This document shows positions 21,886 through 55,826 of a stretch of DNA of 57,531 bases, one piece after another (positions within the stretch are counted from its first letter, which is position 1; every line of letters starts with the position of its first letter). The notes beneath the pieces are model-generated. The model saw only the letters and a list, made by a program, of their open reading frames with translations, was not told where the DNA came from and made no database searches. Source of the DNA: a virus; IMG/VR virus record IMGVR_UViG_3300027777_000042, positions 1 through 57,531 of that record. The stretch is one strand, 5' to 3'. The position numbers were made by a program, and so were the translations under genes.

Positions 21886-22946
21886 TATTTACTCTTCTTC
21901 TCAGTTTTATTTTTATTGGCTTTCTTTTCTTTTTGTGCTTGTTCCCATGACTGATCAAGATAATTACTAAACTCTTCAGGTGTTACTAAGCTTTGAAATT
22001 CAAAAGATCTATCACCTTGTTTAGGCTTTAACCCTAGTTCTGCAAACTTAGGTTCGTATGATCTTGGATCGTACTTATAAAACTCAGACATGTTATCATA
22101 TAGTTCTTGCTCATCATAGTCATATTGGTGCAAGTTGCGTAACACATCAACCATTTCATGTGGTTTTAAGTTGTGAGTTAGCTGATGTTGCATATGAATG
22201 TACAACTCATGCGCATCTTTATTAGATATATCATCTGAAGAATACTCGTTGTATTTTCCATTTGGTGTATTAGCCAACGCATCCATTGAATCAAGTTTCT
22301 CTTTTGGTATACGATCTTTTAAGTAGTCACGAGCTAATAACCATGCACTTTGTGCCACTGCCTGTGGCTCTTGCTCATATGCATCATTAAATGCATGATG
22401 AATAAAATCACCAAGATGAAAGTCAATGTTACCATTCTTTGCAAACGTGGTCTTTGCAACTTCAGTTAATGGCGGCACAATCTCAGGCACAACATCTGCA
22501 ATCTTAGGCGTAGGTAATGCTTGATTCAAAGCAGCTTGACCGGCTTTTTTAAGCACTTCACGTCTAGATACGGGTGTGTTCATGGCTTTAGCGGCCAAGT
22601 CATTTAACGGACTAACAGATGGCGCAGGTGCTGATGTTGGTGCCGGTGCTTGTTGAGGTGCAGGCGCTGGAAAATTAGATGTTGGAACTGGAATATCAAC
22701 AGGTCTAATTGCAGGAACTGAATACTCTGCTTGAGGCGATAATCCAAGAATTGATCGACGTTGTATGTCAATAGGCGGTGCAACTGGCTTAACTGGTTTA
22801 GGCCCTCTGCCAAAAAGCCCTACTTGCTGCATGTAAGGATCTTGACCAAATTGACTAGCACCATCATCATAGACAGGCGGTGGCATCTGACCATTTGCCA
22901 TTAATGAGGCTTTCATATATGGAATATCGTCTTCATTAAGCGGCAT
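21885..22946 (-). CDS. Uncharacterised protein between TerL and polyvalent protein (353 aa)
   Basis: I start at MPLNEDDIPYMKASL, 11 nt inside the TerL stop; the longer open frame just reads TerL DNA in another phase. Residues about 60-140 are a Pro/Ala linker (FPAPAPQQAPAPTSAPAPS). After this comes SRREVLKKAGQAALNQALPT, then helical sequence (HDLNPHEMV-like, NLHQYDYDEQELYDNMSEFY), and a Lys-rich tail (EKKANKNKTEKKSK). RREVLKKAGQAAL looks superficially like a Tat signal but is internal. Adjacent and in series with the giant polyvalent gene, so they may work together, but I know no family for it. Confidence 0.5.
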   Translation of the reverse strand: MPLNEDDIPYMKASLMANGQMPPPVYDDGASQFGQDPYMQQVGLFGRGPKPVKPVAPPIDIQRRSILGLSPQAEYSVPAIRPVDIPVPTSNFPAPAPQQAPAPTSAPAPSVSPLNDLAAKAMNTPVSRREVLKKAGQAALNQALPTPKIADVVPEIVPPLTEVAKTTFAKNGNIDFHLGDFIHHAFNDAYEQEPQAVAQSAWLLARDYLKDRIPKEKLDSMDALANTPNGKYNEYSSDDISNKDAHELYIHMQHQLTHNLKPHEMVDVLRNLHQYDYDEQELYDNMSEFYKYDPRSYEPKFAELGLKPKQGDRSFEFQSLVTPEEFSNYLDQSWEQAQKEKKANKNKTEKKSK

Positions 22947-24366
22947 ATGGGTTAACCCTTCTAGGACGTGAATCATCGGCGTAACCGTCTTCCGGATTAT
23001 ACAAATAATCCAACACAAGAAAACCGCTATCACGCAAATATCTTAATGCTTGTGATGTTGAGTCCACTAAGTCATCATGCCGGACTTCAGGGAATGCGCA
23101 CAACTGATTAATCAAAGCATCTGCCCAATCACGAGCCATTCCTTCTCTGACTTGCGACTCAGGTATATATACCAAACCCCGTTGAATAATTGGCGCAACT
23201 ATATTTAACCTTTGCGTTTTATCTGCATTTCCAGGATTGTAAGGACGTACTGGCAACCCAGCTTTCTGCAAATCTTGGATCAATGAAATCCCTGCCGACT
23301 TGTTTTCTATAAGAATCAAATCAACTTTTTTACCCTGCCCAAATTCATCATTATCCCCGTAAATATTTGCAAACTCATCAATTACACGTGGCCGAAGATC
23401 AGGGTACTTCATGTACTCGTCCCAACTGTCTATAAGCATGACCGACATCGGTTTATCTTCAGGCTTAAATACTCCCCACACCGTGCATGCCGTCGGATCA
23501 TTCGTGGTCTTATCCGATGTTGCACAGTCGTAAGATTGCACCACGTAAATAAATGGGGGTAGGGGTGTTTGCGCATCCCACAACTTGAACCATTGTCTCT
23601 TTACAATTCCTGCCTCCTCAGGATCTATCAACTCGGCGTGAATTTCTTGTCTGCCTAATGATGTTCCCTCGTACTGCAAAATCTGCGTCTGAAAAGATGG
23701 GGCTAGGTTCTTTATGTTGTCATACGTAGATGCTGATGTGTAGCATACGTCTTCACCGTCACGATTAACTAGATCGATAATCAAAGGTTTTGGCTTTGGG
23801 GTTGTTGTGCAAATTAACACAGGCTTTTTTCCTAGCCGCATTCCAAACTGCAGCATGTTCCAAGCTTCGTCTAGATAGTGCCATGCAGCAAGTTCGTCCA
23901 GCCAACCACCATGAAACTGAGGTCCCCGAAAACGTTCTGGCTCTGATGCAGCTATGCCCTTAATGATAGAGCCATTCTTTAGTATTACCTCGTGTAAACT
24001 TTTGTAATACGTTTCGATAATTGCCTCGGGAACTACGCTCAAGAGGCCTGAGTCCCCCTCGTAGCAGACGTCTCGAAGGTCCCCTGATGTCGGAGCAGAA
24101 ACCAACCAGCGAGTTTTTGGATGCGTCCAAGCTTCCCACCAAGTCCATTCAGCCGCACACCTTGTCTTGCCTGCACCTCTACCTGCAAGTAAGAGCCATA
24201 TGTTCCACCAATCGCCCTTTGGCGGGATCTGGTGTGGGTTAGCTACTTGGAGCCATTTAAGGCGAGCTTTGATTGCGGCTTTCCATTCAGGTGAAGCATG
24301 CTCTATGCTCGGACCTGTCTTAAGCCTTTGATCTACGTGATCATGGATTGCTTGTGCTACTGTCAT
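22936..24366 (-). CDS. terL: Terminase large subunit
   Basis: 476 aa. ATPase: Walker A AGRGAGKT (residues 61-68), Walker B region WLDELAAW (155-162), coupling CTTTPKPKPL. Nuclease: VVQSYDCATSDKTTNDPTAC with the first acidic residue, VDLILIENKSAGISLIQDLQ with the Glu, and RHDDLVDSTSQALRYL with the last Asp pair. All catalytic motifs expected of the two-domain packaging motor are visible. Works with TerS and the portal to cut and pump DNA. It overlaps TerS by 26 nt. The region 23.3-24.7 kb appears somewhat more GC-rich than the early genes. Confidence 0.92.
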   Translation of the reverse strand: MTVAQAIHDHVDQRLKTGPSIEHASPEWKAAIKARLKWLQVANPHQIPPKGDWWNIWLLLAGRGAGKTRCAAEWTWWEAWTHPKTRWLVSAPTSGDLRDVCYEGDSGLLSVVPEAIIETYYKSLHEVILKNGSIIKGIAASEPERFRGPQFHGGWLDELAAWHYLDEAWNMLQFGMRLGKKPVLICTTTPKPKPLIIDLVNRDGEDVCYTSASTYDNIKNLAPSFQTQILQYEGTSLGRQEIHAELIDPEEAGIVKRQWFKLWDAQTPLPPFIYVVQSYDCATSDKTTNDPTACTVWGVFKPEDKPMSVMLIDSWDEYMKYPDLRPRVIDEFANIYGDNDEFGQGKKVDLILIENKSAGISLIQDLQKAGLPVRPYNPGNADKTQRLNIVAPIIQRGLVYIPESQVREGMARDWADALINQLCAFPEVRHDDLVDSTSQALRYLRDSGFLVLDYLYNPEDGYADDSRPRRVNPYAA

Positions 24367-46318: not shown

Positions 46319-49300
46319 TTATTTAACACCTTTCAAGTATTCCAATGGTGACTTTGCCTTGGGTGGTATTTTATCAGGTGGGGCAGATCTTTTATGTTTT
46401 CTTATTGCTTGACGCATTTTATCTAACATTTCTGCACCAGCATCGGAAGAGCCATTGCCTAAAGCTGCCACAGTGTCAGCATCAAATACATACTCACCAT
46501 CAGCAAGCATGGCAGGAATATCATCAGATTGCCCATCGCCTTTTCCTTTCACATAATGACCTGTTGCACCAGTAATAAATTCAGGCTTATGATCTACAGT
46601 TCCGCCATCTTTATATGTTGGAAGTGCACCACCATTAATTGCTTGCAATCCTGCAGATGTTAATGCATTAAAGCTATTAGGGTTTGAACCACCAGTTCCT
46701 AATCCTGTACCTGGAATTGGCGTGGATGTTGTACTTGCCACTTGTGTTGGTGATAACGGTGAACCACTAGATCCAGTTTGCGGCCCTAACATTGACATAT
46801 TTGACTGCATTAATGCACCAGAACCTGAACTATCATTTTGTGCTCCTTTACCTGATAATAAAGCTAATGTGCGTGAGTCTAAATGATTTAATCCTGGGTA
46901 TAGTTGTTTTAAATCTTCCATAAGCTTCTTTCTTTCTGATACTGGTGCTGCTGCAAGCATTGAAGCAACTAAATTTGCCGGTAATGTCCCATAAGTGTTT
47001 GTTGTACTGCCACTAAGTGCTGCGCCTGTTGTCGGCGTTGATGTTATTGGTGGCCCACCAGAAGTACCAGAAGTTCCTGATGTGCCAGAAGTTCCTGATG
47101 TGCCAGAAGTTCCTGATGTGCCAGACTTACCAGAAGTTCCTGATGTACCAGATGTGCCAGATTTACCAGAAGTGCCTGAAGTCCCTGACTTACCAGATGT
47201 CCCTGAAGTCCCTGACGTCCCTGATGTGCCTGACGTTCCTGATGTGCCTGACGTTCCTGATGTGCCTGACGTTCCTGACTTACCAGAAGTTCCGGATGTT
47301 CCAGATACACCAGAAGTTCCGGATGTTCCAGATACACCAGAAGTTCCAGACGTACCAGACGTACCAGACGTACCAGACGTACCAGACGTACCAGAAGTTC
47401 CGGATGTTCCAGAAGTTCCGGATGTTCCAGAAGTTCCGGATGTATTAGATGTATTAGATGTTCCTGAAGTATTTACTGTTGTGCTTGTTGGATTTGATGT
47501 AACAGCCACACCTGAAATGCCTGAAGTACCTGAAGTCCCAGATGTACTTAATATGCCCGGTGTTCCAGATGTGCTATTAATAGTAGGTGAACCACTTACA
47601 GATTGTGTACCTGTGGAACCTGTTGTACTAACACTTGTATTTGAAGCACCATTAAACCCTGGTGCAAGACTAATATTATGATTACTAAAATAAGTATTAA
47701 CAGTCCCAATAGGTAAGCCCATAGATAGAGCAATATCAGATGCCGTTAAACTATGTGAACTAGCCCAATCAGCTATTTGCTGTGCTTGTTCTTGTGAAGT
47801 TATACTACTATTAGCTAAAATAGAATTTATACTAGATGCTGTATTTGATGCATTACTACCACTTGCTTGTGTGCTTGCACTACTAGCCGTGGCTGGTGCG
47901 CTTGAAGTTGCAATAACAGGTGGTTTTGTTGTTGTTTCTGTAACAGGTGGTGTTGTTGTAGTTGCAGTAACAGGTGGTGTTGTTGTTGTTGTTTGAGTGT
48001 TATCAGTTGGCTTAACAACTGCACTATTAATATTATCTTTAAGTTGGTTAAATGCTGCAATATCTTGTGGCGTTTTTAGTAATGTAACGTCAAAAGAATT
48101 AATCTTATTAACTGCATCTGCTTTATTTGCATCTGAATCAAATGCATACAATGAAATATCACCTGTAGGTTTAATACCCGGTAAACCACCAAAAAAACCA
48201 GGTAAAAAATCTGTTTTGCCCGTTGTATTATTCGTTGTTGCACCAGTTCCAAATAATGCCTCTTTAATTGCTTTTGGATCTTCTGTACCAAATGAAAATA
48301 TTGAACCTATTTGCGATAAAAAGTCATTACTTACAGCAGGTGTTGTAGATGCTGAGTTTGTTGCAGCCCCTGAAGATGATGATCCTGTTGAAACCATCCC
48401 AGGTTGCTGACCAGATGTATCTACCCATTGTCCTTGACTATTTTGTGCATATATTTTACCTGTGGTGGTGTCAGTATATGAACCATCTTTATTATCTGTG
48501 ATTTTACCTGATGCAACATCATTTCTAAATGCGGTATTAATTGCATTTTGTACGTTATTAAATGCGGCTGTTGTTAAAGCATCACCTTGATCATCAGTTA
48601 TAGTGCCTCTTATTACTTGATTAACTGCATCATTTAATGCTTTATTGTATTGCAAATATGCACTATTTATCAATGTCTGTGACTGTGGCGTAAATGCAGT
48701 CATAGCATTTGACAGACTATTTTGCGTATTTGCAACCATTTGCTGCCCATTAGCTATGGCATATGCTTCTTCAGGCGTGTATCCAGCTGTTGTATAAGTC
48801 TGATATAAATTTTTTGCATCATCTGACAGTGAATTGACTGAATCAGATATTTTAGTTCCCGTTGTGCCACTAGTACCTGATGTTAATGCATTACCTGCAG
48901 ATCCTGCCAATGATCCGATAATTGCATTAGATACTGCAGTTTTATCACCACCATTTAATGCACTTGTTGACGCTGCATTAACAACACTGCTAGTTGCTTT
49001 TGCGATTTTTGATAAATTATCCGCGGATAAAGTATCTTTAAACGATGATGTAATTTCATTGGCTGCTGCAGTACCTAGTCCATTTGCAATTAAGCCATTC
49101 GTAAATGCTGTAAGTACTTTAGTTGCATCACCACCTGCTGCAGCTGAACTTACAGATCTTACAAGTGAATTAGCTACAATATTGCTAACTTGTGTTGGTG
49201 TAAAAATACCATTAATAGATGAAGAAATAGCAGTTGGATTAATAAACTGATTGACTAAATTTGTAGCATTAGCTGATGCACCGCCTGTAACAGCGCCTGT

Positions 49301-50464
49301 TAATGCACCTTTTACAATATCTTGACCACCAAGTGCTGCAAATACCGCACCTGTTGTAGCACCAATTGCAGCACCACCAACTGTTAATGCTATTGTGCTA
49401 TCTGCTGCAGCACCTGTAATAGATGCACCTAGCGATCCTGCGCCAGGTAGTATTGCGTTTAATCCAATAGTAAGACCAATAGTTCCTAAGGGTCCAAGTG
49501 AGTTTACAGCCTGACCAATTTGATGCAGTACTGAACCATCACCACCTCGTTGGTAGTAGGTTTGTGCATTGTAATCAAAAACAGGTAAGATATTTCCTGT
49601 TTCTTTATTAAGACCAACAAGTGTCTGCATTTGACCACCAGTTGACCCTGAAGATATTATATAAGTTCCATTACCATTGTCAATAACTGATGCTGGCAGT
49701 GGTTTTCCATTACCATCAAGTAATGCATACGTTGGATTGTTGTTCTCATCAGTGCCATTTTGAACAACATGTGTATTACCTAGTTGAATCGCATTGTATG
49801 TTTGTGTGTATTCATTACTTGTTTTATCTGGTGCAGGATTAGTCCCATATGCTGTAGAACTTGAATATGGAGTTATTACACCATTGGAAGTATTTAGTGT
49901 TCCAGTTGTACCTGTGGTTCCAGTTGTGCCTGAAGTTTGAGTAGTGTTTAAAGTTGTTGGTTGAAGTACATTACTAGTAATTGTAGGTATAACATTTCCT
50001 GCATTAGGCACACTGGATGCATTTATATTAGATGCATTATTTACTTGTGCTAAAGCATTTTGTGCTGTAGTATTGTCTAAAGAACCATTTTGCAAACCAC
50101 TTAATACTTGCGCAGCACTAGTGTAATTAGTTAGTGCATTATTTGTCTGTGGTAAATTAGTTGTTGTGTTTACTGGTGATACAACACTTGTTGTAGGTGC
50201 ACTTACAGTAGGTAATGCACCAGTAGATGGTGTTATAGATGCGGATCCGGCGTTACTTGTACCACCACCAATTAATTGATTGTAAGCTGTTCCAATATCT
50301 GCAGAACTAGTGTTGTAATGTGCCGCCAATGCATCAGCTAAACCCGGAATAGAGCCTAAACCACCTAATCCTTGAACTGTTGCAGCAACTTGCGCCGGTG
50401 TTGCATTAGCATTTTCCGGTGCGGCAAACCAAGCATTTACTTGATCTTGTATATCATCTGCCAT
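46319..50464 (-). CDS. Giant virion protein with collagen-like GTS repeat array (1381 aa)
   Basis: Residues 1-960 are Thr/Ser/Asn/Ala-rich with an internal hydrophobic part around 330-400 (IGLTIGLNAILPGAGSLGAS). Residues about 960-1137 form a Gly-X-Y array, mostly GTS with GKS, GVS and GIS variants. The C-terminal 150 residues include TYKDGGTVDHKPEFITGATG and KGDGQSDDIPAMLADGEYVF, a terminal motif common in phage internal proteins. Position after the nozzle and before the M23 protein fits an internal/ejection or tape-measure-like protein; the collagen-like rod would be unusual inside a virion. Name of family unknown. Confidence 0.6.
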   Translation of the reverse strand: MADDIQDQVNAWFAAPENANATPAQVAATVQGLGGLGSIPGLADALAAHYNTSSADIGTAYNQLIGGGTSNAGSASITPSTGALPTVSAPTTSVVSPVNTTTNLPQTNNALTNYTSAAQVLSGLQNGSLDNTTAQNALAQVNNASNINASSVPNAGNVIPTITSNVLQPTTLNTTQTSGTTGTTGTTGTLNTSNGVITPYSSSTAYGTNPAPDKTSNEYTQTYNAIQLGNTHVVQNGTDENNNPTYALLDGNGKPLPASVIDNGNGTYIISSGSTGGQMQTLVGLNKETGNILPVFDYNAQTYYQRGGDGSVLHQIGQAVNSLGPLGTIGLTIGLNAILPGAGSLGASITGAAADSTIALTVGGAAIGATTGAVFAALGGQDIVKGALTGAVTGGASANATNLVNQFINPTAISSSINGIFTPTQVSNIVANSLVRSVSSAAAGGDATKVLTAFTNGLIANGLGTAAANEITSSFKDTLSADNLSKIAKATSSVVNAASTSALNGGDKTAVSNAIIGSLAGSAGNALTSGTSGTTGTKISDSVNSLSDDAKNLYQTYTTAGYTPEEAYAIANGQQMVANTQNSLSNAMTAFTPQSQTLINSAYLQYNKALNDAVNQVIRGTITDDQGDALTTAAFNNVQNAINTAFRNDVASGKITDNKDGSYTDTTTGKIYAQNSQGQWVDTSGQQPGMVSTGSSSSGAATNSASTTPAVSNDFLSQIGSIFSFGTEDPKAIKEALFGTGATTNNTTGKTDFLPGFFGGLPGIKPTGDISLYAFDSDANKADAVNKINSFDVTLLKTPQDIAAFNQLKDNINSAVVKPTDNTQTTTTTPPVTATTTTPPVTETTTKPPVIATSSAPATASSASTQASGSNASNTASSINSILANSSITSQEQAQQIADWASSHSLTASDIALSMGLPIGTVNTYFSNHNISLAPGFNGASNTSVSTTGSTGTQSVSGSPTINSTSGTPGILSTSGTSGTSGISGVAVTSNPTSTTVNTSGTSNTSNTSGTSGTSGTSGTSGTSGTSGTSGTSGTSGTSGTSGVSGTSGTSGVSGTSGTSGKSGTSGTSGTSGTSGTSGTSGTSGTSGTSGKSGTSGTSGKSGTSGTSGTSGKSGTSGTSGTSGTSGTSGTSGTSGGPPITSTPTTGAALSGSTTNTYGTLPANLVASMLAAAPVSERKKLMEDLKQLYPGLNHLDSRTLALLSGKGAQNDSSGSGALMQSNMSMLGPQTGSSGSPLSPTQVASTTSTPIPGTGLGTGGSNPNSFNALTSAGLQAINGGALPTYKDGGTVDHKPEFITGATGHYVKGKGDGQSDDIPAMLADGEYVFDADTVAALGNGSSDAGAEMLDKMRQAIRKHKRSAPPDKIPPKAKSPLEYLKGVK
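47058..47470. repeat. 9-bp tandem repeat array encoding Gly-Thr-Ser triplets
   Basis: About 45 tandem 9-bp units, mainly CCAGAAGTT, CCTGATGTG and CCAGACGTA forms on the plus strand. On the coding (minus) strand each codes G-T-S or a close variant. Larger blocks (for example CCAGAAGTTCCGGATGTT) are repeated exactly, showing recent duplication. The array keeps a Gly every third residue throughout. Copy number is likely to vary among relatives and could be mis-assembled. Confidence 0.9.
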
Positions 50465-54352: not shown

Positions 54353-54784
54353 TTACGCGTATTTTCTCGTACCTGTTTTGTCAATGATAAGTGCTTGTCT
54401 GCGAGGTTTATCATTTGGGTTTGAAGGTATAGATATATGTGTCCATCTGTCAAATTCTCGAATCACTTGATCGTATGGCAATTCACTGGCAATAACAGCT
54501 CTAACTACTTCATCAGGAATAAGCCCAGGCACACGAATATCAGCTGCACAACCGATGCGATGCTGACTAGTATCTTTACTTCCAACTGCATCATTTACGG
54601 CTTTTGACCGAAACGCTGAGTTAACCATGATTGGACTGCCATCAAGAAGTTCTTTAATTTGCTCCAAGAATTCTGCAAGACGCATGAGATTTGCTTTTTC
54701 AGATTCGTTAGGTTCATTTGAAAACTCCCTATGATCGGTAATTGTTAACTCTTCAAGAGTAAAGTGTTTAGTTAAAATAGTCAT
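54353..54784 (-). CDS. M15-type peptidoglycan endopeptidase (endolysin)
   Basis: 143 aa. Zinc site of the D-Ala-D-Ala carboxypeptidase/L-alanyl-D-glutamate endopeptidase family: PIMVNSAFRSKAVNDAVG (Arg of substrate pocket), SQHRIGCAADIRVPGL (HxxxxxxxD), WTHISIPSN (last His). Start HFTLEELTITDHREFSNEP is the usual M15 N-terminal helix. Releases progeny by cutting the murein. 4-nt overlap with the holin gene, and co-expressed with it. Confidence 0.88.
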   Translation of the reverse strand: MTILTKHFTLEELTITDHREFSNEPNESEKANLMRLAEFLEQIKELLDGSPIMVNSAFRSKAVNDAVGSKDTSQHRIGCAADIRVPGLIPDEVVRAVIASELPYDQVIREFDRWTHISIPSNPNDKPRRQALIIDKTGTRKYA

Positions 54785-55281
54785 TTTGTTGGGCTTGATT
54801 GATGGAGCATAGTATCTTTAGCTTGTGATCCTGAAGATGAACCAAAATAGAATGAAAGGACGAGCATTAAAGCGCCATCTAAAGTACCTAATACACGTGC
54901 AATTAATTCCCGCATAGTTGGCTCAATTACATGAGTTAACAAGAAAAACTGTACTGCTGCCCAAGCCAACACAATCATAATGGATAATGCAGGAGGTATA
55001 AAACTACCTGTGGTCATTTGCATTTGACGTGCGCTTGCACGGTCAGCTACTGCTAATTTTTCAAAGTCAAGACCCATCTCTTGGGCTCTGGCTTTAAGAC
55101 CTAACTCAGCTTGTTGTAATGCTGCAATTTGATCAGCACTCATCTTGCCTGAGTTAATGGTGTTTTGTACTTCACTAGGGTCAACCCCTATAGCTTTGGA
55201 AACTGCCTCAACTGCCATGCCCGCAAGTGGACCACCAAGAGCAGTAGCTATTGTAGGAGCAATTGATTTCAGCCAATCCAT
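54781..55281 (-). CDS. Holin of the 3TM family
   Basis: 166 aa. N-terminal part MDWLKSIAPTIATALGGPLA with a hydrophobic stretch, middle GVDPSEVQNTINSGKMSADQ and VADRASARQMQMTTGSFIPP, then two C-terminal membrane segments ALSIMIVLAWAAVQFFLLTH and LIARVLGTLDGALMLVLSFY-FGSSSGSQAK. Pattern of the 3TM holins linked with gene-transfer-agent or phage release. It permeabilises the inner membrane for the endopeptidase. The -1-frame stop of the gene upstream abuts this ATG exactly. Confidence 0.85.
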   Translation of the reverse strand: MDWLKSIAPTIATALGGPLAGMAVEAVSKAIGVDPSEVQNTINSGKMSADQIAALQQAELGLKARAQEMGLDFEKLAVADRASARQMQMTTGSFIPPALSIMIVLAWAAVQFFLLTHVIEPTMRELIARVLGTLDGALMLVLSFYFGSSSGSQAKDTMLHQSSPTK

Positions 55282-55826
55282 TTACTGTCCTTTCGATTTT
55301 TGATAATCCAGATGGATGCCGTACATCAGTACGCTAAAGACCATGACCCATGAAAAAACTGCAATGCAAATTGCCGCCCGAAATTCCCATTTGGCAATAA
55401 ACTGCCGCCTTTTATAAGCGGCTTCTTCACGGGCTTTTTTTGCTCACGCTCGACTTTTTCTCGCTCTTTACGCACAATCTCACGCATTTCTGTGAATTTT
55501 GACCAAAGACCGGGCATTCCAACCTGATAAATAATCATTTCACGCAATTCAGTTTCCATCTGAGTCATCTGCTCTTGACGAAGAACTCTGTTCATTGCTT
55601 CTTCGTTGATGGATATATTTTTGGGTAAAGGAACTTTTTGGGACTCCTTATCAGCAACCTTAAACTCCTCGTTGTGCGTGAAGAACTTACCCAAATGCTG
55701 ACTGATGTCGGTGACTATTCCTGATAGATCTTTACCATCTTGCTTGAACTCGTTGTAGAGTTCCACGCATTCTTTGATTCCTGCGTGTGCCGCCTTACAA
55801 GCCGCAAAGATGGTGATTGGATCCAT
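55282..55826 (-). CDS. Holin-adjacent membrane protein read through a -1 frameshift site
   Basis: Shared part, residues 1-131: MDPITIFAACKAAHAGIKEC, coiled helices (TQMETELREMIIYQVGMPGL, EIVRKEREKVEREQKK). At 55434-55440 the 0-frame codons CAA AAA AAG make the slippery heptamer A-AAA-AAG. In frame 0 the protein stops after 35 unlikely residues (stop at 55326). In the -1 frame it continues 50 residues, KRRQFIAKWEFRAAICIAVF and SWVMVFSVLMYGIHLDYQKS, with a clear membrane helix, and stops at 55282-55284, touching the holin ATG. A GCCGC/GCGGC stem lies 11 nt downstream. Either programmed frameshift or a homopolymer indel. Probably a spanin- or lysis-like membrane protein. Confidence 0.75.

Follow-up and report, generated by a model that had tools for sequence, protein, structure and literature searches.

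The heptamer A-AAA-AAG is the natural slip site of E. coli dnaX and is highly shift-prone (PMC5009743). Frameshifting in phages has been documented for tail chaperones and for the Ig domains of coat and tail proteins (PMC5009743), and the frameshift annotations behind PRFect are mostly tail chaperones (PMC10885494). More generally, confirmed frameshifting in phages is known mostly from tail-chaperone and capsid genes. Soluble and membrane products can also be made from one gene, as for copA (PMC5009743). Here we describe a gene that heads the lysis cassette of a virus, IMG/VR record IMGVR_UViG_3300027777_000042 (57,531 nt, referred to below as the window), which very likely uses dnaX-type programmed -1 ribosomal frameshifting. 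Comparison of relatives shows that the frame changes, that the tail is selected, that the site is conserved and that the RNA is locally structured, while there are no protein, ribosome-profiling or reporter data.

Results

The gene and its two frames

The gene is on the minus strand, with its ATG at 55826 and its 0-frame stop at 55328-55326 (ORF 55326-55826, 166 aa). It encodes a conserved N-terminal helical/coiled-coil domain (residues 1-131), which is followed in the 0 frame by a 35-aa tail without selection. The slippery heptamer (55434-55440, minus strand) lies within C-A7-G, in the codons CAA AAA AAG at 55442-55434. In the -1 frame the tail (55282-55434, minus strand) has 50 aa, AREEAAYKRRQFIAKWEFRAAICIAVFSWVMVFSVLMYGIHLDYQKSKGQ, and the region around the junction of the -1 product reads EREQKKAREEAAYK. 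Its TAA (55284-55282) is directly 5' of the ATG at 55281 and follows the 0-frame stop by 44 nt. The tail holds a predicted transmembrane (TM) helix, AAICIAVFSWVMVFSVLMYG (55318-55377, minus strand), which is supported by hydropathy and by a TM helix at the aligned position in homologues encoded in one frame. The maximum 19-residue Kyte-Doolittle score is 2.0-2.6 for the -1 tail versus at most 1.1 for the 0-frame tail. The N-side of the helix is positively charged (KRRQFIAKWEFR), and the charge pattern KRRQ...KWEFR ahead of it may suggest an N-in, C-out topology, an inference made from sequence alone. Since gene callers will annotate just the truncated 0-frame protein, the membrane anchor will be overlooked.

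In-frame A-AAA-AAG is rare: the whole window (40% GC) has 78 stop-to-stop frames that reach 100 codons or more, and only two examples fall within them. Because of this rarity, and because the site is kept in every relative, the arrangement is beyond chance. The other example is at about 23829 on the minus strand, at codon 187 of a 484-codon frame (ORF 22936-24366).

The slip site is invariant among relatives

A protein search with the joined sequence as query gave 80 IMG/VR loci, with 59-99% identity over the best segment. All 80 have the in-frame A-AAA-AAG, and in each of them the -1 frame stays open for a tail of 50-55 residues. We also scanned DNA with a pattern that fixed the upstream codons only and left the A-run free beyond four A, to avoid bias. 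This returned 119 stretches, of which one was unrelated (L137) and 118 belonged to the family, all with exactly C/G-A7-G-C. The family has at least 118 such contigs. The heptamer is invariant in all 193 locus instances, these contigs included, and 60 distinct -1 tails were present across all loci collected. The length of the 0-frame product varies among relatives (157-172 aa). No relative was seen in cellular or prophage copies in a scan of genome contigs. The frameshift arrangement is thus kept in more than 100 environmental contigs of a large phage group.

The main alternative raised by a sequence-only reading of the window was a sequencing or assembly indel in one continuous gene. Homopolymer runs are classic sites for indels, and that reading had proposed checking whether homologues carry A7 with the -1 tail or another run length. 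A7 with the -1 tail was found in 80 of 80 loci and in 118 of 118 contigs. There was no A5, A6 or A8 run among the 118 family contigs, and two DNA patterns written for A8 found no A8 version. In addition, read errors cannot yield synonymous freeze or frame-specific selection (see below). The indel explanation is therefore practically ruled out.

The -1 tail is selected and the codons of the site are frozen

Selection was analysed with 52 non-redundant sequences (3% nucleotide cut). The -1 tail has a pN/pS of 0.36, with diversities of 0.33, 0.24 and 0.56 at the three codon positions. Read in the -1, 0 and +1 frames, the 26-codon overlap has pN/pS values of 0.36, 1.05 and 1.73, respectively. Thus, selection acts at the protein level on the extension in the new frame but not on the 0-frame tail.

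The codons GAG CGT (GAR) CAA AAA AAG are essentially frozen, and no other codons of the gene are alike. The probability of the same codon given the same residue is 1.00 at GAG (-4), CGT (-3), CAA or GAA (-1), AAA (0) and AAG (+1); elsewhere upstream in the gene its mean is 0.50 and its maximum 0.82 (107 other codons). Both lysine codons and both glutamine codons are common elsewhere in the gene. The invariant upstream segment GAGCGTGA (55444-55451, minus strand; 52/52) also creates a -1-frame TGA, which precedes the site by four codons in every sequence.

These data bear on the possibility that the tail is translated from a start codon of its own, as a small independent membrane protein. In its favor, GTG, ATG or TTG occurs at tail codon 2-4 in some members. 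However, the position is not conserved, 16 of the 52 sequences, the window included, have no candidate start before the TM helix, and distant homologues fuse the N-domain to the TM helix. Because the -1-frame TGA is fixed and no start codon in the tail is conserved, independent initiation is unlikely, and we regard a separate protein as next to impossible.

RNA signals around the slip site

A stem-loop lies 11 nt 3' of the heptamer (55404-55422, minus strand; arms 55422-55416 and 55410-55404), with the core GCCGC/GCGGC that the sequence-only reading had placed there; the MFE fold lengthens the stem to 7 bp. The other claims of that reading about the site also held. These were the A-AAA-AAG in the 0-frame codons as a classic bacterial -1 site, the 50-residue -1 frame with a membrane helix and a stop against the ATG, the distance between the two stops, and an implausible 0-frame tail.

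Across relatives, the folding energy in 44-nt windows drops at one place only, immediately past the heptamer (mean z down to -1.8, with mean energies of -11 to -12 kcal/mol). When codons were resampled with the protein sequence unchanged, the first 45 nt past the slip site were over-structured (mean z -1.4 to -1.6), with p<=0.1 directly after the site in 30-31 of 46 sequences. These counts are not independent, as sequences inside groups are related. The segment just upstream is slightly over-structured (z -0.6), and other segments are close to 0. RNAalifold found no common pairs for a consensus stem in 40 sequences, so the fold evidence rests on the per-sequence and synonymous controls. The register of the stem shifts between subgroups, with GCCGC/GCGGC in the window versus GAAG-CTACGT/ACGTAG-A-CTTC in the relative L001. 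Local RNA structure is kept; the exact pairs are not, and there is no column-by-column covariation.

Upstream, GAGCGTGA could be a Shine-Dalgarno (SD)-like stimulator that pairs with the anti-SD as GAG-c-GUGA. The duplex has -8 kcal/mol, which gives it no more than a modest advantage over its synonymous alternatives (z -0.84). The pairing is weak and remains undemonstrated.

The main rival to ribosomal frameshifting is transcriptional slippage, in which RNA polymerase inserts an extra A at the A7 run, so that an A8 mRNA is translated normally into the TM form. Bacteria do use such slippage for expression, as in T. thermophilus dnaX and Shigella spa13 (PMC5009743). The homopolymer run is present in every member, and sequence by itself does not exclude this route. 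However, one would expect the downstream fold and the frozen upstream codons with ribosomal frameshifting, whereas slippage requires neither. Also invariant is the terminal G, without which the run would not make up the shift-prone A-AAA-AAG. Seven A are generally considered short for efficient transcriptional slippage. We consider this rival very unlikely and favor ribosomal frameshifting.

Distant homologues encode the membrane form in one frame

Residues 1-129 match PHROG 32327 (unknown function, E 4.8e-9), and Pfam gave no match for the protein. Homologues in one continuous frame, with no frameshift site used, are present in Limnohabitans phage DC31 (XLZ15461.1; E 1.3e-10 to PHROG 32327), in nine IMG/VR contigs and in Roseobacter phages CRP-1, CRP-5, CRP-6, CRP-7, CRP-345 and CRP-603. 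They have a homologous N-domain, a charged helix/coiled coil and a C-terminal TM helix in the same order; the function of the DC31 and CRP proteins is unknown. Because these distant homologues encode the N-domain and the TM helix in one frame, the TM form is the usual product of the family. The simplest reading is that the frameshift clade split a one-frame protein by recoding, which is inferred. The one-frame homologues are a natural control for this clade. The soluble and membrane-anchored forms proposed in the sequence-only reading are supported by hydropathy and by the TM helix of these homologues.

For the 0-frame protein of the window, AlphaFold gave only a poor model (pLDDT 52.8), which was not used. 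For the one-frame relative L088 (pLDDT 84.7), the model has a short helical hairpin and then a 95-residue helix, which is predicted to run into the membrane. The leading viral structure matches of this model are uncharacterised phage proteins, and there was no PDB match at E <= 0.001.

We also considered a unimolecular spanin, which would combine a lipoprotein signal at the N terminus with a TM helix at the C terminus. A C-terminal TM helix is present, but just 9 residues (one acidic, with no basic n-region) precede C10, and the corresponding Cys is absent from the one-frame homologues. This candidate was rejected.

The lysis cassette

The next gene (54781-55281, minus strand, 166 aa) starts directly after the -1 stop and encodes a holin-like protein with two hydrophobic segments. 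The sequence-only reading had called it a holin. This partly held, being plausible from position and TM segments, and the match is to phrog_1544, without known function. It is followed by an endolysin gene (54353-54784, minus strand; Peptidase_M15_3, PF08291, 2.9e-17; PHROG 894 endolysin). On the other side are two small ORFs and an S74 tail-fibre gene. A tail assembly chaperone (G/GT) was rejected, since the gene is not between the major tail protein and tape measure genes. Among the virion genes of the window, 46319-50464 encodes a protein of 1381 aa that contains an extended tandem repeat of Ser-Gly-Thr (SGT) as well as regions rich in Thr.

In relatives, the place of the holin-like gene may be taken by a gene for an Rz-like i-spanin (PHROG 1327, E 1.9e-21), for a small protein resembling a lipoprotein or for other small TM proteins, and the endolysin follows. 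The lipoprotein-like ORF of L206 and L101, with the motif YRYKCQDxxHFxxxECQxPxC, is directly after the -1 tail; L084 is also concerned. A similar ORF is downstream of a one-frame homologue in the Manatee Spring phage MW202462. Downstream of the one-frame homologue in L085-L091 and L095, there is a small membrane protein that carries an EF-hand-like DxDGDGxVxxxE motif ahead of its TM segments. It is the product of the next gene in DC31-like contigs and of a nearby gene in CRP-1, close to the endolysin. This EF-hand-like protein could conceivably be a Ca-binding holin.

The position of the -1 stop raises another explanation, compatible with frameshifting, in which the shift serves mainly to carry ribosomes as far as the start of the lysis gene that follows, the anchored protein being secondary. 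In 48 of 48 resolvable loci, the -1 stop falls within -14 to +1 nt of the next start and the 0-frame stop is 25-82 nt before it. The identity of the next gene also varies (holin-like or Rz-like i-spanin), in agreement with coupling. However, one-frame homologues have abutting genes as well, so position alone is not evidence. Many of the next genes carry their own SD-like sequence, and the tail is under selection at the protein level. Thus, coupling as the main purpose is unlikely. That slipped ribosomes help to translate the next gene remains a possibility, which is inferred.

The N-domain and tail also recombine. The correlation of their distances is 0.20, against 0.68-0.70 within each part. 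The window and L001 are identical for about 150 nt, with the AAG as the last shared codon, and diverge abruptly from there. L040 has the tail of the window and a different N-domain. Because the two parts recombine there, the site is both a slip site and a module junction. The uniformity of the conserved site may owe something to this recombination of modules.

Discussion

We propose the following mechanism. When ribosomes reach A-AAA-AAG, both lysine tRNAs would re-pair on AAA-AAA in the -1 frame (the tRNA-Lys of the hosts are unknown). The stem-loop about 7-11 nt downstream would aid the slip, and the SD-like GAGCGUGA upstream possibly aids it too. Ribosomes that do not slip would terminate 25-41 codons on and give a protein without the hydrophobic tail, which is probably soluble. 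Those that slip would add the 50-55-residue tail with one membrane helix and terminate where the following lysis gene has its start codon. This full-length product would correspond to the protein that distant phages encode in one frame and that is anchored in the membrane by its C terminus.

The efficiency of the shift, the accumulation of both forms and the function of each are inferred only. The ratio of forms may set the amount of membrane-anchored protein, perhaps through co-oligomerisation of the coiled coils. Metering the amount of this lysis-cassette protein is, by inference, the simplest role for two products. As for a lysis-related role of the ratio, we lean slightly against it on present evidence, and that the switch proposed by the sequence-only reading is a deliberate one with a role in lysis is still an inference. 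A bolder reading, which we think improbable, is a 'dual-end' lysis regulator. In this reading, the frameshift would set the ratio of soluble to anchored coiled-coil protein and also meter translation of the next gene; both forms would co-oligomerise, and the soluble form would restrain the anchored form or the adjoining holin. Such a regulator would use recoding to do what lambda does with its dual-start holin/antiholin. This membrane-anchored family in the lysis cassette, widespread although uncharacterised, raises a testable question: does recoding set the timing of lysis?

We found no earlier report of this frameshift in the literature searched, though most subscription papers were outside its reach. 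E. coli dnaX has in common with the phage gene the A-AAA-AAG slip site, a 3' stem-loop and possibly a 5' SD-like stimulator, though SD pairing in the phage gene is weak and undemonstrated. The shift shortens the dnaX product, whereas here it adds a selected C-terminal membrane domain. The tail assembly chaperone G/GT of dsDNA phages likewise has a -1 shift near the 3' end of a phage gene that gives a longer fusion. However, the present gene is outside the tail module and lacks a tape measure partner, and what the shift adds is a membrane anchor in the lysis cassette. In E. coli copA, as proposed here, a -1 shift lets one gene have two products, one small and soluble and the other membrane-integral, but in copA the shift makes the soluble product and here it makes the membrane product. 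A frame change also carries expression to the start of the next gene in the slippage of Shigella spa13/spa32 and in the coat/lysis frameshift that has been proposed for MS2. The spa13 case is transcriptional, and coupling in the present gene is merely inferred; the MS2 proposal also concerns lysis, but in an RNA phage and with a different model. The DC31 and CRP-1 homologues adjoin lysis genes as the window's gene does. The mechanism is known, and its well-conserved use in a lysis cassette is new as far as the literature searched shows.
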